Part shown: positions 10,243 to 55,457 of the stretch, piece by piece
Layout: each line of letters begins with the position of its first letter
Numbering within the stretch: position 1 is the first letter of the stretch
Virus record (IMG/VR): IMGVR_UViG_3300038465_000091
Span: 159,507 to 223,506 of that record
DNA length: 64,000 bases
Source of the DNA: a virus
Reading direction: 5' to 3' (one strand)
Made by a program: the position numbers and the translations under genes
The notes under the pieces: generated by a model
Told to the model about the DNA's origin: nothing
The model's input: the letters and a program-made list of their open reading frames with translations, nothing else
Database searches by the model: none

Positions 10243-10248
10243 AAAGCC

Positions 10249-10254
10249 ATGATA
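10249..10254 (-). promoter_or_regulatory. Possible -10 box (TATCAT-N6-ATG)
   Basis: TATCAT on the minus strand lies 6 bp before the ATG of the HNH-like gene, matching the leaderless spacing used elsewhere in this genome. No CCTATCGA-type upstream element is seen. Confidence 0.35.
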
Positions 10255-10396
10255 CCACAAAAATCGCTAATGAACGAGTTTTCTTGATACCAAACCCTTA
10301 TTACGAACGCACTTTTCTATAGTCCTTCGCCCCCAAAAGGCCGGATTGGAATTGGGCAATCTGTTTCAAATTTGCTTCACAATTCTGGAGAACTAA

Positions 10397-15579: not shown

Positions 15580-15633
15580 AGGGACTACAAATCCGTTATA
15601 TAGGTGCCGATTAGAGCGGTTGGGAGAAAACAG

Positions 15634-15681
15634 ATGGCTAACGAATTTTACACCTACCTGTGGGAGCATCATAATGCCTAA
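15634..15681 (+). pseudogene. Possible remnant start of a GIY-YIG endonuclease gene
   Basis: A 15-codon frame reads MANEFYTYLWEHHNA and then stops. The first residues match the start of the GIY-YIG gene at 63773 (GEFYTYVYVRQDG) and of that subfamily generally, which begins with FYTYLW. It has a good ribosome site (GGGAGAAAA). It then runs into the tailspike start at 15674. It is probably the leftover 5' end of a deleted homing endonuclease, or a short leader ORF coupled to the tailspike. The match is short, so chance cannot be excluded. Confidence 0.35.
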
Positions 15682-38145: not shown

Positions 38146-38886
38146 TTATCTGTTAGCGCGAGAAACGAAATATTGATCGAAATCGGGATGATCGATACGA
38201 ATTCTAAACTCACCTAGTATAGGAGAGTCGCAACGATATATGTTCCCGAGCTTCTGAACCTTCCGCTTTGAAAATCCCGTCCCGCTCGGGTTGGCCTTGT
38301 CAATCAGACTGTGGATGAACGCACCCAACGCCTTCTCCTCAGGGTCCTTGGATTCCAGCAGTTGCTTACTTGACCTACTCATTGCACGGCGGATGTCGGG
38401 GCGGTGGAGTTTGTGAATCTCGGCTACCCGCTGGAATGAACGAGTCTTGATGTACAGGTCGATGATCGTGCTCAGGGGCACGCTCTTGATACTGTGCTCA
38501 AGCTTTGCCTGCACTAACACATCCTTCATCTTCCCCTCGGTAAACTCCTCCCCATACAGGATGAACGCACACAGCACCTTGACCGCCATGCGGATACGGA
38601 ACGAGCACACCGTCTGCGTACTGCGGTGGATGATCGCCAGTGTGTTCTGGGTCTTGCTCAACAGGTAGTAGCTCAGCAGGAGTTCCTGATCCTCTTTCTT
38701 CAAGAGGCGCAAAATCTTCAAGAACATTGGGAAATTCTCCTGAATGTAGGTGAGGATTTTTTGGTCTTCTTTTTTCTTGGGATCGGACTCTGCACTGAGA
38801 AGGGTCTGCCCTTCGAGGGCTTCTTCATCGGTTAGGAGCATTGCTCGCGAGGCGCAAATCGAATCCATATAAGGAGTATTTTCCAT
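38146..38886 (-). CDS. Putative transcription regulator with sigma-region-4-like HTH
   Basis: 246 aa. Residues about 55-105 read LRLLKKEDQELLLSYYLLS, then KTQNTLAIIHRSTQTVCSFR and IRMAVKVL. The spacing of the two helices around an I-H-x-S-T-Q-T turn is that of a sigma region 4 helix-turn-helix. The C-terminal part holds a second possible HTH (FQRVAEIHKLHRPDIRRAMS). No region 2 is seen, so it may be an anti-sigma or activator-like factor rather than a full sigma. It is encoded opposite the early-type operon. It could direct the unusual promoters of this phage. Confidence 0.5.
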   Translation of the reverse strand: MENTPYMDSICASRAMLLTDEEALEGQTLLSAESDPKKKEDQKILTYIQENFPMFLKILRLLKKEDQELLLSYYLLSKTQNTLAIIHRSTQTVCSFRIRMAVKVLCAFILYGEEFTEGKMKDVLVQAKLEHSIKSVPLSTIIDLYIKTRSFQRVAEIHKLHRPDIRRAMSRSSKQLLESKDPEEKALGAFIHSLIDKANPSGTGFSKRKVQKLGNIYRCDSPILGEFRIRIDHPDFDQYFVSRANR

Positions 38887-39008: not shown

Positions 39009-40409
39009 TTAATCATGCCAAGCGGCGACGTGAACGTGACCTGTGTGAGGAATGGAATCATTGTTTGAAACCCAAACGTTCAAGCCTACGCCAGCAATCG
39101 TCTGAAAAGCGACGTAACTGACCCCGACGCTCGGGAACTGCGTGACGGTGGGTGTGCCGGGTGCCACTTCATCTCCAAGTACGGTGACTTGTACCGTGTA
39201 GTTGTTGTCCGCGAATGCCGAGGAAAACGTCATTGCGATGGGGCCTGTGACCCCACCCTGAGTAAAAGATGTGGCGGTGGAACGTACAGTCTTAAATTTA
39301 CTGCCGCCCGTCGCGGCGTCCACGTAGGCTGTAGTTGCGATCTGGGTGTTATTCGTGAGCGGGGCCGCCGTGGGAGCAGTCGGAGTACCACTGAGTGCGG
39401 GAGACGACAACAGAGCGTAACCCGACAAGGCTGCGACAGTGATGAAGCCCTGTGAAGTAGCAAATGTCTCCGCGTTAGATTGAGCCGTAGCCGCTGCGCC
39501 AAATGCGTCGTAGAACGCCGAGTAATCCCCCGTCAGAGGTATTACCGCCCCCACACGACCGTTGAAGGAGCTTACACCCCCGCCCCCGCCTGCGGGAGTC
39601 AACCAGCTTGCTTTTAGTGGCACGATGATGGTTGTTGCAGCCGTAATGGTTACCGCACCAGTCAAAGCGATGGCCTGACCATTCAAGGTGCCCCCGCCTA
39701 ACGTGACACTTGTGTGGGCTAGAATCGTGCCGACCATGTTGCTAGTTGCAACTGATGTGAAAGAGCTACCGACTAGCCAGATGACAGTCGTGTTAGAGGA
39801 TGTTGCGAAACCTGAGAAACTTACGGATTGACCAGAAGCCAAATTTACCGTGCTTACGGCTTTGAAGATGTATGTGCCGGGGGCTGTGAGTACGATACCC
39901 GTTGGCATCGTCATCGAGCTTGTGGATGAGTAATTACCGGGAGCATACGTATTGCCGCCGCCGATACCACCTATGCTCAGATTGGTGCCGAGCGGTGTGA
40001 AAGTAAGCCCGCTGTAGTACGTGTATGCTGCCTGAGCCGCCGTTTGAGCCGCCGATGCATCGGCGCTGTCCACTATTGCTGGGGGTGGATTGAAGCCCGT
40101 GATTGTGGCGGTGGGAAAGGAGCCGATGGTTCCGCTAGTGACGACGGACGATGACCCTGTGTTCGTGATTCCGCTACCGGCGAGGATGGCGTAATTTGCC
40201 GCCGACCCTAACTGGGAATTTGCGATTATCGTCGTGAGGACCTGTCCGGGAATGGGGGCAACACCATCGAATGCCACGCCGCCGTTTATCACGGCGTCAA
40301 GTGCTCCCCAGTTGAAGTTATACTCGCGGTGTTCCTGATCGTCGTACCGCGATAAGATCAAGCCGAGGACTGGCGTGATTGTGTTGCCAAGTTGGGAATT
40401 ATAGCTCAT
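39009..40409 (-). CDS. Tail fibre with one ice-binding-like (DUF3494) domain
   Basis: 466 aa from the ATG at 40409 (ATGA overlap with the upstream endonuclease). Residues 1-60 form an attachment region with LILSRYDDQEHREYNFNWG. Residues about 64-263 are a DUF3494 domain (SQLGSAANYAILAGSGITN, VIWLVGSSFTSVATSNM, GTILAHTSVTLGGGTLNG). Then come SFNGRVGAVIPLTGDYSAF and SPALSGTPTAPTAAPLTNN...YVDAA, both common repeats of phage tail fibres. The C-terminal 95 residues are a beta-rich tip. The domain may bind carbohydrate, a host surface or ice; only the fold is predicted. Confidence 0.82.
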   Translation of the reverse strand: MSYNSQLGNTITPVLGLILSRYDDQEHREYNFNWGALDAVINGGVAFDGVAPIPGQVLTTIIANSQLGSAANYAILAGSGITNTGSSSVVTSGTIGSFPTATITGFNPPPAIVDSADASAAQTAAQAAYTYYSGLTFTPLGTNLSIGGIGGGNTYAPGNYSSTSSMTMPTGIVLTAPGTYIFKAVSTVNLASGQSVSFSGFATSSNTTVIWLVGSSFTSVATSNMVGTILAHTSVTLGGGTLNGQAIALTGAVTITAATTIIVPLKASWLTPAGGGGGVSSFNGRVGAVIPLTGDYSAFYDAFGAAATAQSNAETFATSQGFITVAALSGYALLSSPALSGTPTAPTAAPLTNNTQIATTAYVDAATGGSKFKTVRSTATSFTQGGVTGPIAMTFSSAFADNNYTVQVTVLGDEVAPGTPTVTQFPSVGVSYVAFQTIAGVGLNVWVSNNDSIPHTGHVHVAAWHD

Positions 40410-41131
40410 AGATGCGTTTCCGTGTGCTTCCCTCTCGTGCAGCCACAACCTTTTGTGTGCCCGTTTCGCAGACTTGTACCTTCAGCGTTGAAGGTATTAC
40501 CACATCGACAACGACAGTGCCATGCCGCCTTTCCAGATTTTGTGTTGCTAACCCTGTCCATTACTGCGACACCGTTGATAATTACACCGAACATGTCTTT
40601 AGCGGGCTTAGGTTTAAGTTCTGGATGACTTCTAGATTGCTGGGCGATACACATATTGGCGATTGCTTCTGGGCCACGTTTGCGTCCAAGCCTAGCGTCT
40701 CTCAATTTTTTCCTACATTCTTCAGTATTAAGCGCAAATTTAATCTTAATAATGGTTTCAGGTGATACTTTACGCCCATGCTGTGCGACACTCATTTTAC
40801 GCCGACTCTCTTCAGTGTGAGGTCCAGTGAAACCTTCCCCACCTCGACAAATGTTGTAACCGTACTCGGGGTCTTGGGATTTGAGGAAGGCGATGAAGTC
40901 TCGTTCGTAAGCGTCAAGTTCTGGACGGGTCTGGATGTCCGACAGAAGAGCGTGGATGGTGAAGGCTTCAATGGGGCACTCTCTTAAAGCCTCGTACAGT
41001 CTAGACCGTTTCGATACTCCCTTTCTGGCGTGTCCAAATTTCTGCTGAAGATATTTCCTCAAGTTGTCACCCTTGTGCTGCCCCACGTAATATTTTCCTG
41101 TAGCATGGTTGACGATAAGGTAGATGTACAT
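40406..41131 (-). CDS. GIY-YIG homing endonuclease with NUMOD3 and C-terminal zinc finger
   Basis: 241 aa from the ATG at 41131, which has AAGGGG upstream. The nuclease domain covers about residues 1-95 (MYIYLIVNHATGKYYVGQHKG and the YERDFIAFLKSQ helix with the Glu). NUMOD3-like repeats follow (HTEESRRKMSVAQHG, SPETIIKIKFAL), and the C-terminus has WHCRCRCGNTFNAEG ... GCGCTRG, a zinc-binding DNA-recognition unit. It sits between two fibre genes on the same strand and overlaps the downstream one by ATGA. Confidence 0.9.
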   Translation of the reverse strand: MYIYLIVNHATGKYYVGQHKGDNLRKYLQQKFGHARKGVSKRSRLYEALRECPIEAFTIHALLSDIQTRPELDAYERDFIAFLKSQDPEYGYNICRGGEGFTGPHTEESRRKMSVAQHGRKVSPETIIKIKFALNTEECRKKLRDARLGRKRGPEAIANMCIAQQSRSHPELKPKPAKDMFGVIINGVAVMDRVSNTKSGKAAWHCRCRCGNTFNAEGTSLRNGHTKGCGCTRGKHTETHL

Positions 41132-41181: not shown

Positions 41182-43695
41182 TTAAGAATGGCTGATCGCT
41201 ACCGCAGCGATGAGGGTCTCATAGCCGAGTGGGTTCGCGAATGATGGTGTCCAAGAGCCGGGTGCTCCCTGAACGCCCCACTCCACAAGGTAGTGAGCTT
41301 CAGAGCCGACCAGCTTACCATTGCTGGCTCTGCTGTAGCCGCCGTTGGTGATGCTGCCGCTTCCGCCGGGAGCCGTGATGACGGTCGTAGCCGTGACGGT
41401 GACCGCTCCGTTACCACCACCCACGGCAAGTGCACGCCCATTGAGGGTGCCGCCGCCGAGAGTGATCGAGGTGTAAGCCAAGATGTCGCCGACCATGTTG
41501 CTGTTGGCAACTGAAGTGAAGGAGCTTCCAACCACCCAGACCACGTTCTGGGCCTGTGCGCCGTTAGCGAGGATGATGGACTGACCGCTCTCAAGCGTTA
41601 CAGTCGATGCCGCGACGAACACAAAGACCGCGTTCGAGTTGCCTTGAGCGTCGAGAGTGATGGAGGTCGGAATGTCCAACGCCCCACCTTTATAGACGCC
41701 AGCGTGGTACACACCTGCCCCACCACCACCGTTGTTGGTGCTGAGGTTGGCAAGACCCGACTGGGTTGCGGTCAGACCGCTGTAGTAGCCAAACGCCGCG
41801 TTACCCGCGAGTCGCGCTGCCGCCGCATCTGCGTTGTCCACGATTGCCGCTGGGGGATTGAAACCAGTGATGGTCATGGTCGGGGCCGAACCGATGTCGC
41901 CGCCCGTTATTGAAGTCGAGGACGAAGCGTTCGTGATCCCGCTGTATGCCAACAGAGCATAGTTAGCAGCCGAACCCAATTCAGCGTTGACAGAGGAACT
42001 GTAGGCTATCAGCGTAGAGTCCGTGCCGAGGCCGAGACCGTTGGCGTTCTTCTGGAGACCTACTACGATGACAAGATCGCCAGTTGGCGGCGAGCCGCTG
42101 CCGGACGTGACTATCGCGGCGGTAACAGCGGGATTAGCCGCCGTGATTGCCGTCTGCGAGAAACTGGCTGGAGAACCACCATCTTCGATTGCCACGCCCG
42201 TCATGCCCGTCCAATCAATCACTTGGAAGTTGATGCCGCCGTCGAATACTGGCTTGCCAGCCGCGAGGTCGAGCGGAGCCGTAATACCGTTCTGATATAC
42301 GGAGTTGAGGTTGACTGGGTAAGAGCCGCCGATTGCCGAGGCGCAGACCCAAACGTAGAGACTTGGGTAATAGCCGTCGATGTTCCAATCCGCTGCTGGC
42401 CATGGGAGGTTAGCAGCGGGAGGAATCGAATACCCGCTGTAGTCCGCGTCCGCGAGGTTGATGCTTGCCACGAGTACCCAGTTGTTTCCTGCGGAAACCG
42501 TTCCCCCACCCGGCGAAGTGACAGCCGTGGCGGTACTGATGCTGATTGCACCAGACGTTACCACGATGCCCGCGAGTGCGCGACCGTTGAGGACGCCGCC
42601 GCCGAGAGTGATGCTGGTGTTGGCGAGAATCGTACCGACCATTGTGCTTGTTGCAACGCTGGTAAAGGAGCTACCGACGATCCAGACTACGTTAGCCGCC
42701 TGCGCCCCGTTGATGAGGGTCACAGCCTGCCCGCTTGCTAGATTTACTGTTGACGCTGATTTGAAGATGAACAGAGCGCCCGAGTTGCCTTGAGCGTCAA
42801 GAACGATGCCCGTGCTCATTGCCATGCTGGAGGTAGCGGAGTAGTTGCCTGCTCGGTAGACGTTACCGCCTGCGATACCCGACGTACTCAGATCGACCAC
42901 GCCGCCGAGTGACGTAAAGGTCAATCCTGAGAAGTAGTTGTACGCCGCGAGAGCGTCAGTTTGAGCCTGCGCTGCGTCTGCGTTGTCAACCACTGCGGGA
43001 GGAACGAGAACCCACGCGCCCGGTGTGATGGTCGTGGTCGGGAATGAGCCGACGTTACCACCCGTGATGACGGACGAGCCCGAGTTCGTGATTCCAGCAG
43101 CCGCCAACAGTACGTAGTTCGCTGCCGACAGTAAGTGCTGGTTGACGACGGGAATCGGGGTGGTGGAGTTGTGGTCCGAGATTGTCGGAGCAGGCGGCAT
43201 GAAGTCGTTCAAGCCCTGAAGGTAACCGAAATTGGGGGACAAGCCGTGAAGCTGATCGAACGGGTCGAGACTCTTGAGGCCGAATGCGATGGCTACAAGT
43301 GTATCGCCAGCCAATGGGCTGACATAGACGTTATCGCCTTGGTCGTTTGCCCACATGTTCGAGACTTTTGAAGCGTACTGCAAAGGTGTGCCCCATCCAA
43401 CAACCAGTTGGACCTGACCAGCGGCAACTACCGCCATGCCATTGCGGTTGTTGAGGACGAGGGTCGTTGCGGAAGATTGGAGGCACAGGAACGTGCCATT
43501 GTTGCTCGCATTGGCGAAACCGCTGACGGTAAAAGCCTGACCTGCGTAGGCTCCGTTCGGCTGTGTTGCCGTGACTGCCCCACCAGTGATGGTTCCAGTG
43601 TAGGTTGTGCTGGCACTTGGCGACCCGGGAAACGGGTAAACTGCATTGCCGACCTGCGTCAATACGAAAACTGGACCGATTGTTGGTACGCCCAT
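41182..43695 (-). CDS. Tail fibre with two ice-binding-like (DUF3494) domains
   Basis: 837 aa. Residues 1-180 are a beta-rich attachment region that includes a FTVSGFANASNNGTFLC fold. DUF3494 copy one spans about residues 185-400 (SAANYVLLAAAGITNSG, NVVWIVGSSFTSVATSTM, GTILANTSITLGGGVLNGRA). Copy two spans about 570-775 (LGSAANYALLAYSGITN, NVVWVVGSSFTSVANSNM, GDILAYTSITLGGGTLNGRA). Between them is a beta domain of about 170 residues. The C-terminal 60 residues form a cap. It is the first gene of the leftward fibre operon. Two tandem ice-binding-like domains in a phage fibre are unusual. Confidence 0.85.
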   Translation of the reverse strand: MGVPTIGPVFVLTQVGNAVYPFPGSPSASTTYTGTITGGAVTATQPNGAYAGQAFTVSGFANASNNGTFLCLQSSATTLVLNNRNGMAVVAAGQVQLVVGWGTPLQYASKVSNMWANDQGDNVYVSPLAGDTLVAIAFGLKSLDPFDQLHGLSPNFGYLQGLNDFMPPAPTISDHNSTTPIPVVNQHLLSAANYVLLAAAGITNSGSSVITGGNVGSFPTTTITPGAWVLVPPAVVDNADAAQAQTDALAAYNYFSGLTFTSLGGVVDLSTSGIAGGNVYRAGNYSATSSMAMSTGIVLDAQGNSGALFIFKSASTVNLASGQAVTLINGAQAANVVWIVGSSFTSVATSTMVGTILANTSITLGGGVLNGRALAGIVVTSGAISISTATAVTSPGGGTVSAGNNWVLVASINLADADYSGYSIPPAANLPWPAADWNIDGYYPSLYVWVCASAIGGSYPVNLNSVYQNGITAPLDLAAGKPVFDGGINFQVIDWTGMTGVAIEDGGSPASFSQTAITAANPAVTAAIVTSGSGSPPTGDLVIVVGLQKNANGLGLGTDSTLIAYSSSVNAELGSAANYALLAYSGITNASSSTSITGGDIGSAPTMTITGFNPPAAIVDNADAAAARLAGNAAFGYYSGLTATQSGLANLSTNNGGGGAGVYHAGVYKGGALDIPTSITLDAQGNSNAVFVFVAASTVTLESGQSIILANGAQAQNVVWVVGSSFTSVANSNMVGDILAYTSITLGGGTLNGRALAVGGGNGAVTVTATTVITAPGGSGSITNGGYSRASNGKLVGSEAHYLVEWGVQGAPGSWTPSFANPLGYETLIAAVAISHS

Positions 43696-43814: not shown

Positions 43815-44333
43815 ATGGCGTTGCTGAGGGGCTATTTATACGTGATCGCTGATAAAGGTCGGCAGTTTGCAAAAATAGGCATGTCACGGGATGTAATTTC
43901 CAGATTCAAGGGATTGCAGACCGCCTGTCCGCTTGATTTGGAGGTGGTGAGTGCCCATCCATGTACGTATGTCCGCTTTCGGGAATTCAAGGCTCATGAA
44001 CAGTTAAAGGATTTGCGCCTTAGAAATGAGTGGTTTAGTTGGGATGAGGTTAGGATAAATACGGCCATTGAGAAGGCTTTGGCGATTCCCGATGAGGTCA
44101 TAAAACCCAGTTTAGAAAAATTGTGGATGTCGAAACCAAACCCAGAACCAGAGGTTAAAGTTAGAGTCCATAGCTACCCTGTAAAACGGGTGGACACTGG
44201 GGAAGTATTTCCCACCGCTCAAGCGGCTGCCGAGGCGGTATTAGGTTCTAAGAGGCTCGCCAAGAAAATCAAGCAAGCGATCAGGGATGGGGCGAAATGC
44301 GGACCCACGTTCTGGGCAAGGGGAGATACATGA
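43815..44333 (+). CDS. GIY-YIG family (T5orf172-like) endonuclease with IENR1-like DNA-binding tail
   Basis: 172 aa. The N-terminal 95 residues follow the T5orf172/Mug113 branch of GIY-YIG proteins (GYLYVIADKGRQFAKIGMS, then RFKGLQTACPLDLEVV). The C-terminal 50 residues (VKRVDTGEVFPTAQAAAEAV ... IRDGAKCGPTFWARGD) match the IENR1/NUMOD1 DNA-recognition module of homing endonucleases. It lies at the edge of the sugar cassette with an ATGA overlap to the first glycosyltransferase gene, so it may have carried or disrupted the region. Confidence 0.78.
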   Translation: MALLRGYLYVIADKGRQFAKIGMSRDVISRFKGLQTACPLDLEVVSAHPCTYVRFREFKAHEQLKDLRLRNEWFSWDEVRINTAIEKALAIPDEVIKPSLEKLWMSKPNPEPEVKVRVHSYPVKRVDTGEVFPTAQAAAEAVLGSKRLAKKIKQAIRDGAKCGPTFWARGDT

Positions 44334-45040
44334 GCGTAGCACTTATCTTCATCTGCACGGGAGCCAACTATCACAAATACATCGAACCCGCAGTTGCCAG
44401 CGCGAAGAAGTATTTCCTGCCGCAGCAAACAGACATCCTGTTGTTTACGGATAGCGAGCGGCAGTACGACGTGGCGAAACAAGTCCAGTCGCCTCATCTC
44501 GGCTGGCCCAATGTCACGTGGCGCAGGTTTCATACGTTCTTGGGCGAGGAAGTTTGGCTGTCCGAGCATGACTTCCTTTGGTACATGGACGTTGACTCGG
44601 AGATCGTGGCCCCTGTGGGGGAGGAAATCTTTTCCGATGGCATCACCGCCACGGTACACACGTCGTTCATCCTGAGTAAAGGGACGTACTGCACTCCCGA
44701 GGAGAATCCGCGATCCGCCGCCTGCTTGAGCAAGAAAGACATCCGCAAGATGTACACGGGAATGTCCTACGGTGGAACATCTAAAGCTTTCCTCGCGTTG
44801 TGCCGCGAGTGCGCTACGATTGTGGACATCGACACCAAGAATAATTTTGTTCCCATTTGGCACGACGAAAGCGTGCTCAATAAATATCTGTACGACCACC
44901 AACCAGCCAAGGAGCTTGGAGAAGATTACAATGCTTGGAACAGGAAACCCAGCACCAAGGTGTTTCGCGTCCCCAAACCCGGTGCTCCGAATCGTCCTGC
45001 CGTCAACGGAGTTCAGCCGTCCGATCCGAGGAATGCATGA
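44330..45040 (+). CDS. GT6-family alpha-1,3-Gal/GalNAc-transferase homologue
   Basis: 236 aa from the ATG that overlaps the previous stop (ATGA). GT6 signatures are in order: ILLFTDSE (FTD at residues 39-41), WYMDVDSEI (DVD, 87-89, the metal/UDP site), YGGTSKAFLAL (acceptor-loop GGT near 148-150) and IWHDESVLNKYL (177-187). These are shared with animal ABO transferases and alpha-1,3-galactosyltransferase. From the literature, bacterial GT6 enzymes carry NxN in place of DxD, while the P-SSM2 cyanophage enzyme keeps DxD; this one keeps DxD. It has no membrane anchor. It likely adds alpha-1,3-linked Gal or GalNAc to a fucosylated or similar acceptor. Substrate not proven. Confidence 0.85.
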   Translation: MSVALIFICTGANYHKYIEPAVASAKKYFLPQQTDILLFTDSERQYDVAKQVQSPHLGWPNVTWRRFHTFLGEEVWLSEHDFLWYMDVDSEIVAPVGEEIFSDGITATVHTSFILSKGTYCTPEENPRSAACLSKKDIRKMYTGMSYGGTSKAFLALCRECATIVDIDTKNNFVPIWHDESVLNKYLYDHQPAKELGEDYNAWNRKPSTKVFRVPKPGAPNRPAVNGVQPSDPRNA

Positions 45041-45744
45041 GGGTATTAGTAGCTATTCTCGCCTGCCACAGGTACGTCGCAATAAATGGTCGGGGTTGGG
45101 ATTGGACGAATAGGGATAAGCACCGCCTCATTCCCGTAGACGCGCAGATAGCCGCGTGTCGGGAGACTTGGGTCAAAGGTTTGGCGACGTACCCCAATGT
45201 CGATGTTAGATTCTTTTATGGACGCGGGGCGAACCGTCAGCCGCTAGCCGATGAGGTATTTTTGGATGTCGCGGACGATTACAAAAATCTACCATACAAA
45301 ACGAAAGGTATCTGTGGGTGGGCAAACGGGCATTACGATTTCACATTCAAAACGGACGACGACACCTTTGTTTGGACGAACAACCTCATGAATAGTGGGT
45401 TTGAAGGTTGCGATTACGTGGGCTCCGTCAACGACACCAGACCCCAAAGCCTCTATGCAACGGGGCTGGGGTATTGGTTGAGTGCAAGAGCAGTGAGATT
45501 GGTTGCTGGCGCAATCCCTAATACTGATTTAGAAGACCATTGGGTGGGGTCGGTGCTTCGTAAGTCGGGGATTGTTCCAAAACACGATAAGCGATACGTC
45601 AGTATAGGCAGCAAATTTGTGGGGGTAGATGCGATGCCTCGAAATTCCGAATTCATTGCCGTTCATCCGTGTAGTCCAGATATGATTCATACTTATGATT
45701 TCGAGGAATGTCCTCGGGGTCGTCCTTGGAGCCAAAATGATTAA
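45037..45744 (+). CDS. GT31-like (beta-1,3) glycosyltransferase
   Basis: 235 aa from the ATG at 45037 (ATGA overlap). It follows the galactosyltransferase/Fringe pattern: R-ET-WVKG near residue 42, DEVFLDVADDYKNLPYKTKG (72-91, cf. the D-x5-Y-x-NL-x2-KT signature), the metal site KTDDDTFV (DDD at 107-109), and ATGLGYWLSARAVRL where GT31 enzymes have a G-x-GY-x-LS motif. It has no signal anchor, so it acts in the cytoplasm. Expected reaction: beta-1,3 transfer of Gal, GalNAc or GlcNAc from a UDP sugar. Confidence 0.8.
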   Translation: MRVLVAILACHRYVAINGRGWDWTNRDKHRLIPVDAQIAACRETWVKGLATYPNVDVRFFYGRGANRQPLADEVFLDVADDYKNLPYKTKGICGWANGHYDFTFKTDDDTFVWTNNLMNSGFEGCDYVGSVNDTRPQSLYATGLGYWLSARAVRLVAGAIPNTDLEDHWVGSVLRKSGIVPKHDKRYVSIGSKFVGVDAMPRNSEFIAVHPCSPDMIHTYDFEECPRGRPWSQND

Positions 45745-46531
45745 CGTCACGCTAGATGGTGGGTTGGGTAATCAGCTTTTTCAATATGCCCTCGGTCGCA
45801 GATTCGCGGCCAATGGGCATGATGTTACGTTTGACAGAACACGTGTGGTCGATTATGATGGTGCCGCCCACCATAAAACTCGCGCTCAGTATGGTCTAGA
45901 CGGGTTTAATACTACAGTAAAGTTCGGTAGCCCCATAGGTCCGATCTTCAGCGACTACAATTTCCCGGGGGCTTTACCATTTCGACCTGAAGTCTTGAAT
46001 TTGCCCGCTCCCCACACCTTGAGGGGGCATTGGCAGAGTGAGCAATATTTTGCGAATGTGGGTGAGCTTCGTAAGGAATTGACACTCAAGGTCCAACCCA
46101 GTAGTGCCGTTCAAAGTGTCGCGGAACGAATTAAAGCTGGTAACAGCGTGTTCCTGCACGTTCGTCATGGTGATTATCTGATAAAGGAAAACGTGACGTA
46201 CCATGGTCTGATGACCCCCGAATACTACACTCGTGCATTGGGGTTCATCTCAGCCCGTGTAACTGATATCAAGCCCTTCATATTCTCGGACGACCCGGAG
46301 TGGTGCCGACAGAATTTGGCAGGGGAAGTTATAGCTGGGAATAATCAGTTTGAAGACCTGTGGTTGATGAGTTTGTGTCAACACGCCGTCATCGCCAACA
46401 GCACATTTAGCTGGTGGGGTGCGTGGCTAGGTGATACACAAGAGCGCATAGTGGTAGGACCCGCCCAATGGTTTTTGACACCCCATTTAGACGCACGTGA
46501 CATCATCCCGACACGTTGGGTAAAACTATGA
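45737..46531 (+). CDS. GT11-family alpha-1,2-fucosyltransferase-like enzyme
   Basis: 264 aa from the ATG at 45737, overlapping the previous gene by 8 bp. The GT11 signatures are clear: LDGGLGNQLFQYALG (6-20), HVRHGDYL (141-148), FIFSDDPEW (181-189) and AVIANSTFSWWGAWLG (217-232). Most family members read HxRRxD; here the second Arg is His. The enzyme should use GDP-fucose, or a related GDP-L-sugar such as GDP-L-galactose that the 50336 epimerase could make, on a terminal beta-galactose. It sits right after GT6 and GT31 genes, matching the steps of H/ABO antigen synthesis. Confidence 0.85.
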   Translation: MINVTLDGGLGNQLFQYALGRRFAANGHDVTFDRTRVVDYDGAAHHKTRAQYGLDGFNTTVKFGSPIGPIFSDYNFPGALPFRPEVLNLPAPHTLRGHWQSEQYFANVGELRKELTLKVQPSSAVQSVAERIKAGNSVFLHVRHGDYLIKENVTYHGLMTPEYYTRALGFISARVTDIKPFIFSDDPEWCRQNLAGEVIAGNNQFEDLWLMSLCQHAVIANSTFSWWGAWLGDTQERIVVGPAQWFLTPHLDARDIIPTRWVKL

Positions 46532-47439
46532 TGACCGATCTTGTTATAGGGATTGCATCCGGCTATACATGGCATGAGCTTTATCCTTTCGTGGTCAGCC
46601 TACGGCGCTGCGGCTATGAAGGTCGTGCGGTACTCATTATTGGCGACGGACCACATGACGCGGGGCATCCCATTATCTATGAACGTGGTGAGGTGAAAGC
46701 CGACTTGTCCTCCAAGCTGGAGGATCACGGAATCGAGACCATCAACCTCGGAAACTTCCCCGAACATCCGATTCTTGCGAGGTTCCCCACGATTGCCGAC
46801 GCAATAGACAAGTCGAGCGGCTTGCGCTATGCGCTAAGTATGGACACGAAGGACATTGTGTTCCAATACGATCCCACGAAATGGTTGGAACGACATCTCG
46901 GCGACAAACAGATCGCGGTGCAGTCCGAGGAGACGACCTATGCTAAGAGTGAGGGAAACAAAAGAAACTGCATCCTCGCCTTCGGCGAGGAGACGTTCGA
47001 ACGAATGCGAGATGAGGATGTGCTGAATGCGGGGGTCATCTGCGGCACGCCGTCGTGGGTAAGCCGCCTGCACCGCGACATCTACAATCTCACGTTGACC
47101 GACATGCGGATGAAACGTGGCGAGAAAATAGGCTACGAACAGATGATCGCCGACCAGACGGCGCTGAACATTCTGCTTCGGCAGCCGCCCTATTCCGATG
47201 TAACCAAGATAGTTCACAACCACGAGGGTTTTGTTTACGAAGGTTGTCTCTACGGCAGTATTGCCCCCCACACATTGATGACCTCCGAACAAGTCGTCGA
47301 GCTTGCCAGTAGGACGAACTTGAGATGGGACGACGACATGACGATGACCACGAACGATGGCAGCCCGTATGCCGTTGTTCACCAGTATTTCGCCGTGTCT
47401 GAATGGATTCACGGCTTGCGGGGCAAGTTCGAGGGGTGA
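46528..47439 (+). CDS. Putative glycosyltransferase, GT-A-like
   Basis: 303 aa, ATGA overlap with the previous gene (a second ATG follows at 46531). A DxD-like site is seen in ALSMDTKDIVFQYDPTKWLE (near residues 106-125), with a preceding region (PTIADAIDKS) and a later DVLNAGVICG loop that resemble nucleotide-sugar transferases. No precise family is assigned. It is in the middle of the cassette and is probably another sugar-transfer step. Confidence 0.6.
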   Translation: MMTDLVIGIASGYTWHELYPFVVSLRRCGYEGRAVLIIGDGPHDAGHPIIYERGEVKADLSSKLEDHGIETINLGNFPEHPILARFPTIADAIDKSSGLRYALSMDTKDIVFQYDPTKWLERHLGDKQIAVQSEETTYAKSEGNKRNCILAFGEETFERMRDEDVLNAGVICGTPSWVSRLHRDIYNLTLTDMRMKRGEKIGYEQMIADQTALNILLRQPPYSDVTKIVHNHEGFVYEGCLYGSIAPHTLMTSEQVVELASRTNLRWDDDMTMTTNDGSPYAVVHQYFAVSEWIHGLRGKFEG

Positions 47440-47477
47440 GCAAACAAAGAACTTAAGGAACGGTACAGGGTAGAATA

Positions 47478-48737
47478 ATGGATTTGAATAACCCAGAAAT
47501 CAAACGCTGGACAGACAGTGGTACTGCATGTTGGGGCGTAACCGACGAATACAAGGGCGAACTGATCCTTGATTATGCGCGGCGTTTCAACCTGATGACT
47601 TTCGTCGAAACTGGAACATGGCACGGCGGCACCGTGGAGTATGTCAAGCAGCATTTCGACCAGATTCACTCCATAGAACTGTCCCCGGAGCTTGTCGAGA
47701 ATTGCAGAAAAAGATTTTCTGGTTCGCCCAACATCCACTTATATCAGGGTGACAGTGGTGAAAAGATCAAGGAGCTTTTTGGTGGTCTGAAAACTCCGAC
47801 GCTATTCTGGTTGGACGCACACCCGTCAGGCGGTGACACTGTTGGAACCTACAGTCCCTTGGAGAAGGAGCTTACGGCTATTTTTGAGAGCGGCGTCAAA
47901 GGCGTTATCCTGATTGACGACCTACAGGATTGCTGGGAACACAATTGGGCAGAAGTGGCGATGCGGACAGTCGCCAAATACAGCGGTTGGCGGCATGAAA
48001 TAACCCACGGCATCATGAGGATCGTATCCGTAGACGCCAGTGTCATCATCCCCCTGTACAACCTGCAAGACTTCGTGGGGCAAACCATCGAGTCCGCGCT
48101 CAATCAGACTCACCGATTTTTTGAAGTTATCGTCGTCAACGATGGGTCCACAGACGGGAGTCTCAATGTAGCGAAACGCTATGGAGATCGTATCATATTG
48201 ATAGATCAGCAGAACGCTGGATTGAATGCATCGCGTAACGCCGGAGCCAGAGTGTCAACGGGGACTTTCCTACTGCCGTTGGACGCCGACGACTGGATCG
48301 AGCCAACGTACCTTGAAAAGACTATCCCTTTAATGACTGAGGGCATTGGTGTAGTGTCTACCGATATGGACATATTTGGCGAGGTCAGTCGGGCGGACAT
48401 ATCTGGCGAGGTCAATCGGTTGCAGCCTATTGGTAGACCTACTCTCGAAATTCAAAAATGGGCGAACACGATGCCGTGCTGCTCCCTAATACGGCGCACA
48501 GCGTTTAACCAAGCTGGCGGCTATAGCGCCCGCCCAGACATTCAGGCTTACGGAGATTGGAATCTTTGGATTGACATTCTCAAACGCGGTTGGAAAGTCG
48601 CCTCACTAGCGGAACCCTTGTTTCACTATCGTGTGCGCCCGATATCAATGAGTTTAGAAGTATCATCAAAGCACGCTGAACTGGCGAAGGCTATTCGCCG
48701 TAATCACCCCGACCTGTTTAGGCTGGAGGAAAGATGA
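47478..48737 (+). CDS. Fusion: SAM methyltransferase plus GT2 glycosyltransferase
   Basis: 419 aa. Residues about 20-180 are a class I methyltransferase-like domain (TFVETGTWHGGTVEY motif I at 41-55, HSIELSPEL, FWLDAHPSGGD). At residue 187 a GT2 domain starts (ASVIIPLYNL, IVVNDGSTDGS at 218-228, LPLDADDW near 265) and continues to the end. Both parts are in one frame without a gap. GT2 enzymes use UDP or dTDP sugars; the methylase part may act on the same glycan. ATGA overlap with the next gene. Confidence 0.78.
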   Translation: MDLNNPEIKRWTDSGTACWGVTDEYKGELILDYARRFNLMTFVETGTWHGGTVEYVKQHFDQIHSIELSPELVENCRKRFSGSPNIHLYQGDSGEKIKELFGGLKTPTLFWLDAHPSGGDTVGTYSPLEKELTAIFESGVKGVILIDDLQDCWEHNWAEVAMRTVAKYSGWRHEITHGIMRIVSVDASVIIPLYNLQDFVGQTIESALNQTHRFFEVIVVNDGSTDGSLNVAKRYGDRIILIDQQNAGLNASRNAGARVSTGTFLLPLDADDWIEPTYLEKTIPLMTEGIGVVSTDMDIFGEVSRADISGEVNRLQPIGRPTLEIQKWANTMPCCSLIRRTAFNQAGGYSARPDIQAYGDWNLWIDILKRGWKVASLAEPLFHYRVRPISMSLEVSSKHAELAKAIRRNHPDLFRLEER

Positions 48738-49732
48738 CCAAAATTCTCGTTACTGGCGGTGCTGGCTTTATCGCCAGCCATTTTATTGACCATGTTCTAC
48801 GTACCACGGACTGGCACATTACGGTGCTTGACAAGTTCACCTACGCCTCGAATGGTCTGACTCGGCTAAAAGAGATCGGTGCGTATGATAATCCACGGGT
48901 TAAAATCCACGTCCACGATTGTGCACGACCTTTCGGCTCCTGTTTGGAAAACGAGATCGGTCATATCGACTATCTATTGCACATGGCGGCAGGCACCCAC
49001 GTGGACAATTCCATAGCATGTCCGAGAGATTTCGTCGAAGCGAACATTTTCGGCACCTTCGAGATGCTGGAATACGCTCGCCGCATACCGGGGCTCAAGA
49101 AATTCGTCTACTTCTCCTCGGATGAAGTCTACGGCCCGGCAGCCGTTGGTCAGAAGTTTGAAGAGTGGGACAGATACAACTCTTGCAACCCGTATTCCGC
49201 TACCAAGGCTGGCGGCGAGGAGCTTTCTCTCGCATGGGCTAACACTTACGGGGTGCCCGTAGTCATCACCCACACTATGAATGTGATTGGTGAAAGACAG
49301 CACCCCGAAAAATTCGTGCCGAGGGTTGTTCGTAGCGTGCTTGCGGGCACTGAGATTCAGATACACACAGACCCCAAGACAGGTAAGCCCGGGAGCCGCC
49401 ACTACCTGCATTGCCGAGATGTTTCGGACGCCGTGATGTTCCTGTTGCCTCGCGCTGAAATTCGCCAGAAGTACAACATAGCAGGCGAAGTGGAGATTTC
49501 CAATCTTGAAGTCGCACAAGCGGTAGCCGAAGTTTTGGGTAAAGAACTCAAGTTCAAGCAAGTTAACCCAATCGACGTGAGACCGGGGTTTGATGTGCGC
49601 TATGGGCTTAGTGGCAAGAAGATGGCCGAGATGGGTTGGACGCCCGCTCACAGTTTTCGGGAGAACATCAAGTACCTCGTGGAGTGGATGGTCGCTCCCG
49701 AGAATTCTCACTGGCTGAAAGTCGGGGATTAA
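48734..49732 (+). CDS. NDP-sugar 4,6-dehydratase/epimerase (RmlB-like SDR)
   Basis: 332 aa. Extended SDR enzyme: GGAGFIAS dinucleotide-binding loop (residues 8-15), SDEVYG (129-134, Asp-Glu as in 4,6-dehydratases), and YSATKAGGE (YxxxK, 154-158). The later SRHYLHCRDVSDAV matches RmlB-type sugar nucleotide binding. It probably makes a 4-keto-6-deoxy sugar nucleotide, the first step to deoxysugars such as rhamnose or fucose-type sugars. The nucleotide (GDP, dTDP or UDP) cannot be told by eye. Confidence 0.8.
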   Translation: MTKILVTGGAGFIASHFIDHVLRTTDWHITVLDKFTYASNGLTRLKEIGAYDNPRVKIHVHDCARPFGSCLENEIGHIDYLLHMAAGTHVDNSIACPRDFVEANIFGTFEMLEYARRIPGLKKFVYFSSDEVYGPAAVGQKFEEWDRYNSCNPYSATKAGGEELSLAWANTYGVPVVITHTMNVIGERQHPEKFVPRVVRSVLAGTEIQIHTDPKTGKPGSRHYLHCRDVSDAVMFLLPRAEIRQKYNIAGEVEISNLEVAQAVAEVLGKELKFKQVNPIDVRPGFDVRYGLSGKKMAEMGWTPAHSFRENIKYLVEWMVAPENSHWLKVGD

Positions 49733-49733
49733 C

Positions 49734-50339
49734 ATGAACGAACTCTGCACACTCGGAGCGAAATACAGGACGGATAAACATAACGCCAAAAACTTCCCTG
49801 AAGAAGGCGATCTGACATCCGTCTACCACGGTCTTCTGAAGGACCGTAGGGATGATGTTCGGAAGGTTCTGGAGATCGGGATTGGGCACACCGTGGCGGG
49901 GCGAGAAGGTTGGATGGGAACTATAGACGATTACCACGCCGGGGCTAGCCTGTTCATGTGGGAAGAATATTTCTCCAATGCGGAGATTTTTGCGTTGGAT
50001 ATTGTCACTGAGGCGCTCATCAATCAAGGTCGCATCCGCTCTTTTTGGTGCGACCAGAGCAGTGAAGATTCCCTGCGAAGTATTATGCCCACGCTCGGAA
50101 CTGATTTCGATCTCATTATAGACGACGGTTCTCACCAAGTTGAGCATCAGATTTTGACAGCTAACACCTTCATGCCCCTACTGGGTCCGAGGGGAATCTA
50201 CGTCATCGAAGACATCCACCTGAAAGATAGGGAGATGATAAAGAACGGAATCAAGAATCCGTCCGAGTTTAGGGAAGTTATAGACACGGAAGGTCTCATC
50301 GGCGACCTAATGCTGATCTTTAAGAAGGAGAGTGTATGA
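49734..50339 (+). CDS. Class I SAM-dependent methyltransferase (macrocin/MycE-like)
   Basis: 201 aa. VRKVLEIGIGH (motif I, about 42-52), GASLFMWEEYFSNAEIFALDI, then FDLIIDDGSHQVEHQ and GIYVIEDIHL fit sugar O-methyltransferases of the macrocin/MycE type, where the IDDGSH part binds the metal. It starts 1 bp after the previous stop and overlaps the next gene by 4 bp. It likely O-methylates one of the sugars made by the cassette. Confidence 0.75.
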   Translation: MNELCTLGAKYRTDKHNAKNFPEEGDLTSVYHGLLKDRRDDVRKVLEIGIGHTVAGREGWMGTIDDYHAGASLFMWEEYFSNAEIFALDIVTEALINQGRIRSFWCDQSSEDSLRSIMPTLGTDFDLIIDDGSHQVEHQILTANTFMPLLGPRGIYVIEDIHLKDREMIKNGIKNPSEFREVIDTEGLIGDLMLIFKKESV

Positions 50340-51316
50340 GCAACATAATGGTAACAGGCGCAGGCGGTTTCATCGGGCATCATCTGGTCAAGCGGCTGAA
50401 GGCAGAGGGACACTTCGTTCGCGGTATCGACATCAAGTACCCCGAGTTTGAAAAGACGGCGGCGGACGAGTTCTGGCTTAAGGATTTGCGTTGGGACTAT
50501 AACGCCATCCACGCTTTCAACGGTGAGCCATTCTGTGTTCGCGAGTTCGACGAGGTTTATCAGCTTGCGGCTGACATGGGCGGCATCGGGTACATCACGA
50601 AGTATCTCGCCGACATCGCTCGTAACAACATTCTGATTAACGTCAACATGTTGGAGGCGGCTCGGAGATTTGGCGTCAAGCACTACCTCTACACGTCCTC
50701 GGCCTGCGTGTACAATCAAGACAAGCAGCGAGATGCCAACGTAGTGCCCCTGAGGGAAGAGGATGCTTACCCCGCGCTACCCGAACGCGGCTACGGCTGG
50801 GAGAAATTGTTCGCTGAGCAAATGTGCGAATACTACCAGCACGATTACAACCTCGACATTCGCATGGTGAGATTCCATAACGTCTATGGTCCTCTCGGGA
50901 CATACGACGGCGGTAAAGAGAAGTCCCCCGCAGCCATCTGCCGCAAGGTTGCACTGGCACGGGATGGCGGGGAGATCGAAGTTTGGGGCGATGGGTTGGC
51001 GACCCGTAGCTACATGTACATTGATGACTGTGTGGAGGGACTGAGACGCCTTATGAACTCGGGTTATCAGAAGCCATTAAACCTCGGCACTGATGAGCTT
51101 GTCACGGTAGATGGTCTGGTGGACATTATCAGTGGTGTTGCTGGAAAGACCTTGACCAAGCGCCATGACCTCACCAAGCCGCAGGGTGTGCGCGGACGAA
51201 ACAGCGACAATAATCTGCTTCGCCAGATTCTCGGATGGGAACCGAAGACACTCCTCGCGGATGGATTACGGCCAACATACGAATGGATTAAGGATCAAGT
51301 ATGTCCGAAACTCTAA
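50336..51316 (+). CDS. GDP-mannose 3,5-epimerase-like SDR enzyme (GME-like)
   Basis: 326 aa. The Rossmann loop is GAGGFIG (8-14). The residues that matter in plant GME have equivalents at the same spacing: Cys124 in SSACVY, Tyr153 and Lys157 in YGWEK, and Lys196 in GGKEKSPAAICRK (Arabidopsis Cys145, Tyr174, Lys178, Lys217). AADMGGIGYI and VRGRNSDN are further signatures. GME turns GDP-D-mannose into GDP-L-galactose (or L-gulose). Together with the GT11 enzyme it could supply an L-galactose in place of L-fucose. Confidence 0.75.
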   Translation: MSNIMVTGAGGFIGHHLVKRLKAEGHFVRGIDIKYPEFEKTAADEFWLKDLRWDYNAIHAFNGEPFCVREFDEVYQLAADMGGIGYITKYLADIARNNILINVNMLEAARRFGVKHYLYTSSACVYNQDKQRDANVVPLREEDAYPALPERGYGWEKLFAEQMCEYYQHDYNLDIRMVRFHNVYGPLGTYDGGKEKSPAAICRKVALARDGGEIEVWGDGLATRSYMYIDDCVEGLRRLMNSGYQKPLNLGTDELVTVDGLVDIISGVAGKTLTKRHDLTKPQGVRGRNSDNNLLRQILGWEPKTLLADGLRPTYEWIKDQVCPKL

Positions 51317-53028
51317 TAGCGATAATTACTTGCAAGAAGTACGCCTATCGAGTCCAGATGCAGTTGGACACGTGGGTTCCGCAAGCAATTGCCGCAGGAT
51401 TTGACGTTGAGGTTTTTGACGGCGAGAGGCTAGGTGTCCCCGACGACTACTTGTCCCTGCCGCTTAAGACTAAAGCCCTGTGCAAGTGGGCTGCTGACCG
51501 TGGGTACAAGCGTCTACTAAAGCTTGATGACGACGCCTACATTCGAGTTGCAAATTTTCATACTGTTTTTGATGACTATGCGGGAATTTTCATCTTGAAA
51601 AATGACTGTGGGCTGCGGAACAAGGACATTAAAGATTTCCCAAATGGTACGTGTCCCTTCCCATACGCCAGTGGCGGCGGATACTGGTTGTCCGAACGTT
51701 CCATGAAAATTTTGATAGACGCGCCTTTTTATAGTGATTGGGCCGAAGACAGATGGGTGGGTCAGACGTTGGGGCGGGCAGGAATTTTCGTGACCGTACT
51801 TCCAAACTACTACATGTTCATTCCTTGGGCAAACGCGGCTCACCCACTGGATTATAAAAATACGAAGGAATACACTCATATCCCCATACAGCAAGTGATT
51901 GCCTCGGAAGATTTGATTCTACTCACACAAATCACCAAAGCCGAGGAGTTCAAAGCCCTCCATGCGTGGCAACCTAAAGAACAAGTTGCGGCTGGCTCTC
52001 CCCCAACCCTAAATTCTACGGCATTGATCGTCATAGCCACGGGAGTTGTGTATCAGCACTATGCAAAAGAGCTTATCGCTTCAGCGAAACAGTTCTTTGT
52101 TCCCCATGATGTGTTTCTGTTTACGGATAGTCAAGAGCCTTTTGATGGTGTGAGTGTTCAACTTCACCACGCCCATCTCGGTTATCCTGGATCGACCCTG
52201 ATGAGATACCACGCTATCGTATCGCAGCGTGAAGCTCTCTCCAATTACGACTACATATTCTACGTGGACGCTGACATGAAGTTTCTTTCTACGGTCTCGG
52301 CGGGTGAGGTGTTTTCTGCTGGTATCACCGCGACCGAACACCCCGGATTTATCGGTGGTGGGGGATCGCCTGAGACTAGACCAAAATCTGCGGCTTACGT
52401 TCGAGAACTCAAAGTGTATTATTGTGGCGGATTTAACGGCGGTACTGCTAAGGCATTTTTAGCTATGGCTGAGGAGCTAAAGCGGGGAGTGGATACCGAC
52501 AAAGCCAACGGCATAACAGCGGTCTGGCATGACGAATCTCATCTCAATCGTTTTTTGTTTTATAATCCCCCATCGCGGGTTCTCTCCGTGGAATTTTGTT
52601 GGCCCTCTGTGGAATGGCGATTAACTTCGTACCTTAAAGAATGGCGAAAAGTACGAGGTGAAACGTATGGGCAGGAGCTTGTTCCTAAGTTGATGGCTAT
52701 CGACAAATCGTCAAGGACGGAATACTCAAGTATAAGTCCTCAACCCCCACCCCCGACCCCGCCACCTAATGTGATCGCGGCACGGTGTAACCGTCACAAT
52801 GTGTCGGCTTGCAGTGTATGTATAGCGCACGGTTGGCAATTTCGACAGCCTATCACCCCTGCGCCCACACCGATATCGCCACAAGCCACAACCCCGCCCG
52901 CTCCCCCTCCTCAACCGAATCCGCAAGTGCAGGCGGCAGCGGCGAAGGCTCTTACGGCAACTTTGAAACCAAGTCAAGGGGCTTTGTATCGTAACAGGAA
53001 TGCGGACAATCAGAGGAAGTTGAGATAA
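51301..53028 (+). CDS. Fusion glycosyltransferase: GT31-like plus GT6
   Basis: 575 aa, overlapping the previous gene by 16 bp. Residues 1-200 are GT31-like (LKTKALCKWAADRGYKRLLK, metal site LDDDAY at 75-80, SGGGYWLSERS). Residues about 240-460 are GT6 (FLFTDS, FTD at 274-276; YVDADMKF, DAD at 323-325; YYCGGFNGGTAKAFLAM; WHDESHLNRF, 409-418). The C-terminus is Pro-rich with a Cys/His cluster (CNRHNVSACSVCIAHGW) and is probably unstructured. It joins two activities that the same cassette also encodes separately at 44330 and 45037. Confidence 0.82.
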   Translation: MSETLIAIITCKKYAYRVQMQLDTWVPQAIAAGFDVEVFDGERLGVPDDYLSLPLKTKALCKWAADRGYKRLLKLDDDAYIRVANFHTVFDDYAGIFILKNDCGLRNKDIKDFPNGTCPFPYASGGGYWLSERSMKILIDAPFYSDWAEDRWVGQTLGRAGIFVTVLPNYYMFIPWANAAHPLDYKNTKEYTHIPIQQVIASEDLILLTQITKAEEFKALHAWQPKEQVAAGSPPTLNSTALIVIATGVVYQHYAKELIASAKQFFVPHDVFLFTDSQEPFDGVSVQLHHAHLGYPGSTLMRYHAIVSQREALSNYDYIFYVDADMKFLSTVSAGEVFSAGITATEHPGFIGGGGSPETRPKSAAYVRELKVYYCGGFNGGTAKAFLAMAEELKRGVDTDKANGITAVWHDESHLNRFLFYNPPSRVLSVEFCWPSVEWRLTSYLKEWRKVRGETYGQELVPKLMAIDKSSRTEYSSISPQPPPPTPPPNVIAARCNRHNVSACSVCIAHGWQFRQPITPAPTPISPQATTPPAPPPQPNPQVQAAAAKALTATLKPSQGALYRNRNADNQRKLR

Positions 53029-54398: not shown

Positions 54399-54513
54399 GA
54401 GAACTCCTTGCTAATTAAAGCACCCGAAAGTCGATAACTCTGGTTAATACCCATCAGAAAGCCGTTTGTTTCCCGAAAATCAACTATCGGATGCTACTTC
54501 AGAGGGTAACAAC

Positions 54514-54831
54514 ATGGGCAAGCTTCGTGCGGCGACAACTTTCGGATTAGGGGCTCAAAAATCCGCTGATTCCAGCGTTTTCACGGTTAATCACTTCATT
54601 TCCAGCACCCCCGTACCCCCCGCCCTCAAGCAAAAGATCGCCAGCATGGGACTTGAACGGATAGCTGGCAATATATATGAATCACCGAGCACTCGGGATT
54701 TTTGGAAAGTAAAAGGAAACAGTATCATAAAGCTAGTTGGCGATGAGGTAGACAATGGAGAGTCAATCGCCGCCGCCCCTAAAAACGACCCTATGGGTTT
54801 TATGGGTGCTTTTGACGATATCGAGTTCTAA
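54514..54831 (+). CDS. Hypothetical protein (105 aa)
   Basis: The ATG at 54514 follows AGAGGG; a longer frame begins at 54466 without a site. The chain has a polar N-terminus and a small folded centre (ASMGLERIAGNIYESPSTRD) that may be a beta-hairpin domain, plus an acidic tail (PMGFMGAFDDIEF). No family recognised. A GIY-YIG gene starts 2 bp after its stop. Confidence 0.55.
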   Translation: MGKLRAATTFGLGAQKSADSSVFTVNHFISSTPVPPALKQKIASMGLERIAGNIYESPSTRDFWKVKGNSIIKLVGDEVDNGESIAAAPKNDPMGFMGAFDDIEF

Positions 54832-54832
54832 C

Positions 54833-55453
54833 ATGCTGATTTACAAGCTCACAAATCGAATCAACGGTGGGGTCTACATCGGCAAATATGTCGGAGATGA
54901 GGCAGACGCTCGTTTTCAACAGCACGTTCGCGAAGCGAGACGGGGTGGGGATCGTTACCTATGCCGCACTATTCGCAAGTACGGCTCGGATGCCTTCAAG
55001 GTCGAAGTGATTTATCGTGCCAAGACCGCTGATGAACTCTCCAAGATGGAGACCTTTTTCATCGTTCTCCATCAAAGTCATAAAGTTGAGAACGGCTACA
55101 ACATGACGCTGGGCGGTGAGGGAACTGTGGGCCGGATTATTTCGGAAAGAACAAGACAGCTTTGGAGTGAGCAGCGTAAAGGAAGACCTGTCACAGCGCA
55201 ACAGTTGAAAAACCTAGCTCTTGGGCATCATCGACCGAAAAAAATAGTTGCGGTTAAACCCGCCGAAGAAGTGGAAGCCGCAATGAAAGCAGCGATGCGG
55301 GCTGCATGGACTCCCGAACGTAGGGCAGCACAAGCACAGCGGATAGCAAATCGGAATCGTCTTCGTGTTGGAAAACGTGGAGCATTATCTACGGAATGGA
55401 AGATGGCGATTTCAAATGCAAAGAAGGGGAAAGCAGCTTCGGCTGCGGCATAA
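54833..55453 (+). CDS. GIY-YIG homing endonuclease
   Basis: 206 aa from the ATG at 54833, just after the previous stop. The nuclease domain is at residues 1-100 (MLIYKLTNRINGGVYIGKYV, RTIRKYGSDAFKVEVIYRAK, METFFIVLHQSHKVENGYN), very close to that of the 12691 gene. The C-terminal half is basic with AAWTPERRAAQAQRIANRNR, also echoing the 12691 C-terminus. It is probably a recent paralogue spread by homing. Confidence 0.88.
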   Translation: MLIYKLTNRINGGVYIGKYVGDEADARFQQHVREARRGGDRYLCRTIRKYGSDAFKVEVIYRAKTADELSKMETFFIVLHQSHKVENGYNMTLGGEGTVGRIISERTRQLWSEQRKGRPVTAQQLKNLALGHHRPKKIVAVKPAEEVEAAMKAAMRAAWTPERRAAQAQRIANRNRLRVGKRGALSTEWKMAISNAKKGKAASAAA

Positions 55454-55457
55454 ACCT

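Follow-up and report, generated by a model that had tools for sequence, protein, structure and literature searches.

The glycosyltransferase genes

We analyzed the last 64 kb (record positions 159507 to 223506; hereafter the window) of the virus record IMGVR_UViG_3300038465_000091, which has 223,506 bases in all, and describe an operon of glycosyltransferase and nucleotide-sugar genes at 44330-53028. Coordinates are window positions unless marked as record positions. The operon begins with three consecutive overlapping genes (44330-46531), which a first-pass annotation had assigned to glycosyltransferase families GT6, GT31 and GT11, the same three CAZy families as in the human ABO pathway. All three are intact and translationally coupled, each starting within the stop region of the gene before it. 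The start of GT6a lies inside an ATGA overlap with the preceding stop, and GT31a probably begins in the same manner, at the ATG at 45037 over the stop of GT6a. Directly upstream is a MUG113/T5orf172-domain gene (43815-44333), which overlaps the GT6a start.

44330-45040, + strand: GT6a, stand-alone GT6 glycosyltransferase (PF03414, E = 3e-22; BoGT6a 4ayj, E = 6e-33; alignment)
45037-45744, + strand: GT31a, beta-1,3-glycosyltransferase family GT31 (PF01762, E = 3.5e-10; profile against PDB; AlphaFold and Foldseek)
45737-46531, + strand: GT11, alpha-1,2-fucosyltransferase family, motif I HVRHGDY (PF01531, E = 2.5e-23; alignment; motif survey)

Family membership was judged with curated Pfam profiles, each at its own cut-off. 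All three proteins scored above it: GT6a against PF03414 (79 bits, cut-off 25), GT31a against PF01762 (40 bits, cut-off 23) and GT11 against PF01531 (83 bits, cut-off 23.9). None was placed outside the family first proposed for it. GT31 was the weakest of the three calls by sequence. A profile of eight viral GT31 sequences matched seven PDB sequences at E ≤ 8e-5, all of them GT31 enzymes, with C1GalT1 the best (9e-8); the sole other match at E ≤ 1 was a cellulase (0.018). In Foldseek, the solved structures that best matched the AlphaFold model of GT31a (predicted local distance difference test, pLDDT, 83; predicted template modelling score, pTM, 0.84) were human B3GNT2, B3GalT6 and B3GalT5 and fly C1GalT1, at query-normalised TM-scores of 0.64-0.70. 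Both the profile and the predicted fold thus back the GT31 assignment.

GT6a has FTD, DVD, HDES and VPK, and GT31a has TDDD, GLGYWLS and LEDHWVG, matching the DDD, GxGYxLS and ED-V motifs of GT31. The first-pass description of the signatures as intact does not hold entirely for GT11, where motif I departs from HxRRxD.

Fusions and recurrence link the three families

The gene run goes on past 46531 to 53028, with start/stop overlaps throughout the operon. These further genes, which the first-pass annotation did not cover, include a GDP-mannose 3,5-epimerase (GME; GDP, guanosine diphosphate), an RmlB-like dehydratase and a fusion protein of 575 amino acids (51301-53028), made up of a GT31 domain, a GT6 domain and a C-terminal tail that is conserved.

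51301-51879, + strand: GT31b domain of the fusion (PF01762, E = 5e-5; alignment)
52012-52695, + strand: GT6b domain of the fusion, with DAD, HDES, and CGG at GTA 266-268 (PF03414, E = 1e-25)
52780-53028, + strand: conserved C-terminal tail, CNRHNVxACSVC ... KPSQGxLYRN (also in L019 and L022, two related viral loci)

The fusion protein scored 23.6 bits against PF01762 (cut-off 23) and 91 bits against PF03414 (cut-off 25), and GT6b matched BoGT6a at E = 1e-27 and human GTA at E = 6e-25. Fusions also occur at other viral loci, with either domain leading: GT31-GT6 was found in L030 and L036 as well as in the window, and GT6-GT31 in L138-L141. A GT11-GT31-GT31 fusion was found in L143. The opposite GT31/GT6 orders indicate separate events and are the best evidence that these enzymes act jointly.

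Neighborhood statistics were drawn from the best 80 of 355 GT6 viral loci and from 39 GT31 viral loci, with a fetched span of 12 kb; merging of near-identical loci left 81 clusters. GT11 was also present in 45 of the 62 dereplicated GT6 clusters, and GT6 near GT11 is a widespread phage unit. Among the GT31 clusters (n = 31), 11 carried both GT6 and GT11, one GT6 only, one GT11 only and 18 neither. On these counts GT6 and GT11 were associated (Fisher test, P = 1.6e-6; GT31-seeded clusters alone, P = 6.9e-5). The set in the window is not a chance assembly, since 11 dereplicated viral clusters contain all three families. The fusions and this recurrence are good evidence that GT31, GT11 and GT6 act together, in line with the cooperation first proposed for the three genes.

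In a tree of GT6 domains, those with a GT31 neighbor grouped in one part, with the cyanophage GT6s elsewhere; the only locus in that part with no detected GT31 was L075, which is the short end of a contig. Of 12 related records, 6 share the major head gene (74-91% DNA identity), which indicates that the glycosyltransferase set travels largely within one phage lineage.

The virus is a giant soil phage, a jumbo phage like Tunturiibacter phage Tunturi_5, a 309-kb myovirus whose host is a member of the Acidobacteriota from tundra soil. The major head proteins of the two phages (10983-11942 in the window) share 71% identity and many late genes are common to both, so that the host of the virus, too, is probably an acidobacterium. 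Tblastn of GT6, GT31 and GT11 against Tunturi_5 gave no match. Two Tunturi_5 proteins annotated as galactosyl transferases, gp300 and gp301, were considered as GT31 homologues and rejected, as they match pyruvyl transferase and GT2/GT7C families instead. Homologues of the genes flanking the stretch (38146-38886 and 54466-54831) adjoin each other in Tunturi_5, the first one inverted, and the sugar genes therefore form an accessory stretch amid late genes.

Catalytic and donor-pocket residues

Both GT6 domains have a DXD motif (DVD in GT6a, DAD in GT6b) and the catalytic Glu within WHDES. Among 72 distinct viral GT6 domains surveyed, 66 read DXD, four DXC and two NAN. The DXD type thus predominates in viral GT6s, whereas most bacterial GT6s read NXN and need no metal (PMC3961637). 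The same contrast separates both window domains from their best solved match, Bacteroides ovatus BoGT6a, a compact GT6 domain without a stem that is NXN and metal-independent (PMC3961637); with DVD and DAD, GT6a and GT6b are probably metal-dependent.

The two domains also differ in the donor pocket. At residues 266-268 of GTA, which are LGG in human GTA and MGA in GTB, the viral domains read AGG in 46 cases and CGG in 11, GT6b included; TGM was confined to GT6a and a relative 94% identical to it. Since Thr-Gly-Met matches neither the Ala-Gly-Gly of BoGT6a nor the Leu-Gly-Gly of GTA, the donor of GT6a cannot be inferred from this triplet. GT6b, with Cys-Gly-Gly, looks the more A-type-like of the two and compatible with UDP-N-acetylgalactosamine (GalNAc).

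Remainder of the operon and the donor sugar

Between GT11 and the fusion gene lie five further genes.

46528-47439, + strand: conserved operon protein, 302 amino acids (no Pfam, PHROG or NCBIfam match)
47478-48737, + strand: methyltransferase-like N-terminus and GT2 glycosyltransferase (PF00535, E = 2e-32; PF13649, E = 0.005, below cut-off)
48734-49732, + strand: RmlB-like nucleotide-sugar 4,6-dehydratase (TIGR01181; PDB 2hun, E = 1e-55)
49734-50339, + strand: methyltransferase-like protein (phrog_21658, E = 4e-12)
50336-51316, + strand: GME (PDB GME 2c59, E = 2e-93; cyanophage GME homologues)

The first of these has a 51% identical counterpart in L022 and is a possible glycosyltransferase; its structural model was too poor to be used (pLDDT 41). 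The RmlB-like dehydratase scored 257 bits against TIGR01181, under the cut-off of 365. GME aligns over its full length (residues 4-322) with the solved plant enzyme 2c59, and its active-site segments SSAC (Cys), YGWEK (YxxxK) and GGKEKSP (Lys) all align with solved GME. It is 50% identical to cyanophage GME homologues.

The presence of GME bears on the donor of GT11. No gene of the record could be assigned by tblastn as Gmd or Fcl, the enzymes of GDP-fucose synthesis, and an fcl query reached only the GME gene, at 27% identity. GME, Gmd or Fcl was also encoded in 30 of 45 clusters with both GT6 and GT11, as against 5 of 17 GT6 clusters without GT11. In cyanophages S-CAM9, S-PRM1, S-8S55, SynMITS9220M01 and S-SCSM1, GME lies beside or near GT11, and several contigs carry Gmd, Fcl, GT11 and GT6 in series. 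The closest GT31-bearing relatives encode GME (identity 92% in G007, 82% in G014, 71% in G008 and 68% in G011), whereas some relatives carry Gmd, with or without Fcl, rather than GME. In others close to the window, Gmd is accompanied by an RmlC-type epimerase and a DegT aminotransferase; in L012 (9504-13216) and L015 (10651-14430) these three follow GT11, a gene set that suggests an amino- or deoxy-sugar GDP donor, not the GME product. GT11 members are known to use GDP-sugars other than GDP-fucose, for example GDP-colitose. From this distribution, GT11 probably uses a GDP-hexose as donor, a different one in different phages, and for the sugar transferred in this record L-galactose is a serious candidate.

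The tail of the fusion protein, which is Pro-rich and carries CNRHNVxACSVC, stands on different glycosyltransferase proteins in three phages (the window; L019 8694-8951; L022 about 10190-10460). Searches of the other proteins of the record and of parts of Tunturi_5 found it on glycosyltransferase proteins only, and it may serve for docking or metal binding. In L019 the site of the GT31-GT6 fusion is occupied by a GT2-GT2-GT31 fusion of 775 amino acids (6630-8957), a case of domain swapping at one site.

A proposed pathway

We favor, by a small margin over doubt, the reading that the operon encodes a cytosolic assembly line with which the phage builds a short branched oligosaccharide. The GT31 domains would transfer a hexose, in beta-1,3 linkage, to an acceptor already present, GT11 would add an alpha-1,2-linked L-sugar from a GDP-L-hexose, and the GT6 domains would cap the beta-linked sugar with alpha-1,3-linked galactose (Gal) or GalNAc. 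The GDP-L-hexose would come at least partly from the phage GME, in which case the L-sugar may be L-galactose and not L-fucose. GT2, the methyltransferases and the RmlB-like dehydratase would modify or extend the glycan. The families, catalytic motifs, gene overlaps, fusions and co-occurrence are observed; the order of steps, linkages, donor, acceptor and role are inferred.

Several points weigh against this proposal. The second Arg of GT11 motif I is replaced by His (HVRHGDY), whereas HxRRxD is read by the other six aligned viral GT11s and by 45 of 47 surveyed viral GT11s showing motif I. GT6a orthologues may also be weakened, since in L012, L021 and L022 the second Asp of the stand-alone GT6 has become Cys (DVC or DIC), although DAD is retained in the fused GT6. 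The link between GME and GT11 is not exclusive, given that S-SCSM1 encodes all of Gmd, Fcl and GME, and GME could feed some other transferase. Viral records are fragments. Finally, this record is not known to be complete, which gives absences from it little weight.

Acceptor and role

Searches of the record gave no PF02397 initiator and no PF01943 flippase, nor did E. coli queries for export and polymerase functions return a match. With no lipid-linked initiator or flippase detected, the chain would be built on a pre-existing acceptor, of the host or of the virion. The divergent neighbor of the operon is a candidate acceptor or fibre.

41182-43695, − strand: divergent neighbor with two Ice_binding domains (PF11999, E = 4e-61)

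This protein is 51-74% identical in L012, L015 and L022, and lies beside the glycosyltransferase operon there too. Its position in these nearest relatives gives a slight preference for a virion protein as the site of the chain; host envelope glycan precursors are almost as likely. Ice_binding-like (PF11999) domains or close repeats occur in the window at 39009-40448, 41182-43695 and 15620-19102, and also at record positions 55213-55926 and 99263-100351. One of these genes, which lies among the late genes, encodes a protein of 1160 amino acids, and the recurring domains are possibly fibre or adhesin modules.

Decoration of the virion, with the glycan on a fibre or capsid protein such as the neighboring Ice_binding protein, is a serious though tentative option. 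Soluble enzymes amid late genes fit it, export genes would not be required, and the neighbor is conserved in L012, L015 and L022. Yet no protein-linking glycosyltransferase was identified in the record, the Ice_binding neighbor was not found near more distant three-family clusters, and its place in the virion is itself presumed.

Modification of the host envelope, in which altered lipopolysaccharide (LPS) or exopolysaccharide precursors would, for example, exclude other phages, is also credible but somewhat doubtful. Surface polysaccharide loci typically contain nucleotide-sugar enzymes, GT2 and methyltransferases, a phage with no initiator would need host precursors, and similar cyanophage clusters have been read as cell-wall or LPS genes (PMC9602691). 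The record yielded no flippase, polymerase or initiator, however, and the operon sits among late virion genes. Decorating fibres and altering the host, two of the roles first suggested for these genes, thus stay viable; the third, mimicry of an animal glycan, is without support because the bacterium infected by the nearest isolated relative came from tundra soil.

A true ABO(H)-like glycan appears unlikely. In it, host GDP-fucose would give L-Fuc-alpha-1,2-Gal-beta-1,3-R (Fuc, fucose), and an alpha-1,3-GalNAc or Gal cap would complete an A- or B-type determinant. GT31 enzymes transfer Gal, N-acetylglucosamine or GalNAc, and nothing in the sequence tells which sugar the phage GT31 transfers, which makes an ABO(H)-type product less supported. 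In addition, GME is encoded but neither Gmd nor Fcl was detected in the record, GT11 motif I is altered and the GT6a donor pocket is atypical. Even so, the donor pocket and WHDESHLN of GT6b align closely with human GTA, Gmd-Fcl-GT11-GT6 occurs in several other phages, and BoGT6a, the nearest solved bacterial relative of GT6b, makes A-antigen-like products from 2'-fucosyllactose (PMC3961637). Of the blood-group-like trisaccharide proposed in the first-pass annotation, the families and their joint action are supported, whereas the ABO(H)-type product, as worded there, is not. A further and improbable variant is that the line of fused and separate GT31, GT11 and GT6 makes a new A-type glycan displayed on the virion, with L-galactose from the phage's own GME replacing L-fucose.

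Glycosylation of a hypermodified DNA base by these transferases is very improbable: phage glycosyltransferases can act on DNA, as in T4, and one S-SCSM1 enzyme near GT11 is annotated as a DNA beta-glucosyltransferase, but no member of the thymidylate synthase/hydroxymethylase family (PF00303) was found in the record and the nucleotide-sugar and methyltransferase context fits glycans better.

Relation to known systems

Phage clusters of nucleotide-sugar and glycosyltransferase genes, including GT6 and GT11, are already known. GT6 is on record in cyanophages (PMC3961637), a Gmd-Fcl-GME-GT11 cluster in S-SCSM1 (PMC9602691), and both GT6 and GT11 in phages from soil (PMC12016548) and crAss-like phages (PMC12053484). 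A 2025 paper described GT11 as new to phage genomes (PMC12016548), although GT11 is annotated in cyanophage records such as S-SM2 and ACG-2014f.

Cyanophages SynMITS9220M01, B23 and DSL-LC03 have GT11 and GT6 in overlapping order, as in the window, and P-SSM2 has GT6. SynMITS9220M01 also has GME directly upstream of the pair. These pairs differ from the window in having no GT31 by tblastn, GT6 only 28-30% identical and another gene order. The S-SCSM1 cluster likewise sets GDP-mannose chemistry beside an alpha-1,2-fucosyltransferase (PMC9602691), but includes Gmd and Fcl and has no GT31 match. Vermicompost soil phages carry both GT6 and GT11, although these were read as carbon-sequestration genes and GT31 is not mentioned (PMC12016548). 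The human ABO pathway (GT31, FUT1/2, GTA/GTB) uses sequential Golgi enzymes and GDP-fucose, as opposed to the soluble enzymes, fused domains and GME of the window.

The unusual part is GT31. We found no paper on GT31 in phages in a literature search confined to an open-licence library, and tblastn gave no GT31 match among 50,697 phage records. One scan of genome contigs found GT31 in two bacterial contigs from metagenome-assembled genomes, at 26% identity; it was present in 2 of 399 genomes from the phylum of one of them, and is thus very rare in the bacteria sampled.

In earlier work phage GT6 and GT11 each figure as an auxiliary gene standing alone. Fusions and co-occurrence show them to be part of a unit with GT31, so that what was a list of sugar genes becomes a pathway open to testing. 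Linked, partly fused enzymes of the ABO families suggest that the phage makes a branched sugar of its own. Given that these searches gave no GT31 match in isolated phages and very few in the bacteria sampled, these viruses form a reservoir of GT31 and DXD-type GT6 enzymes that are compact and soluble; such enzymes could be useful tools and could inform the evolution of the ABO enzymes. The link to GME raises the concrete question of which L-sugar these phages use.

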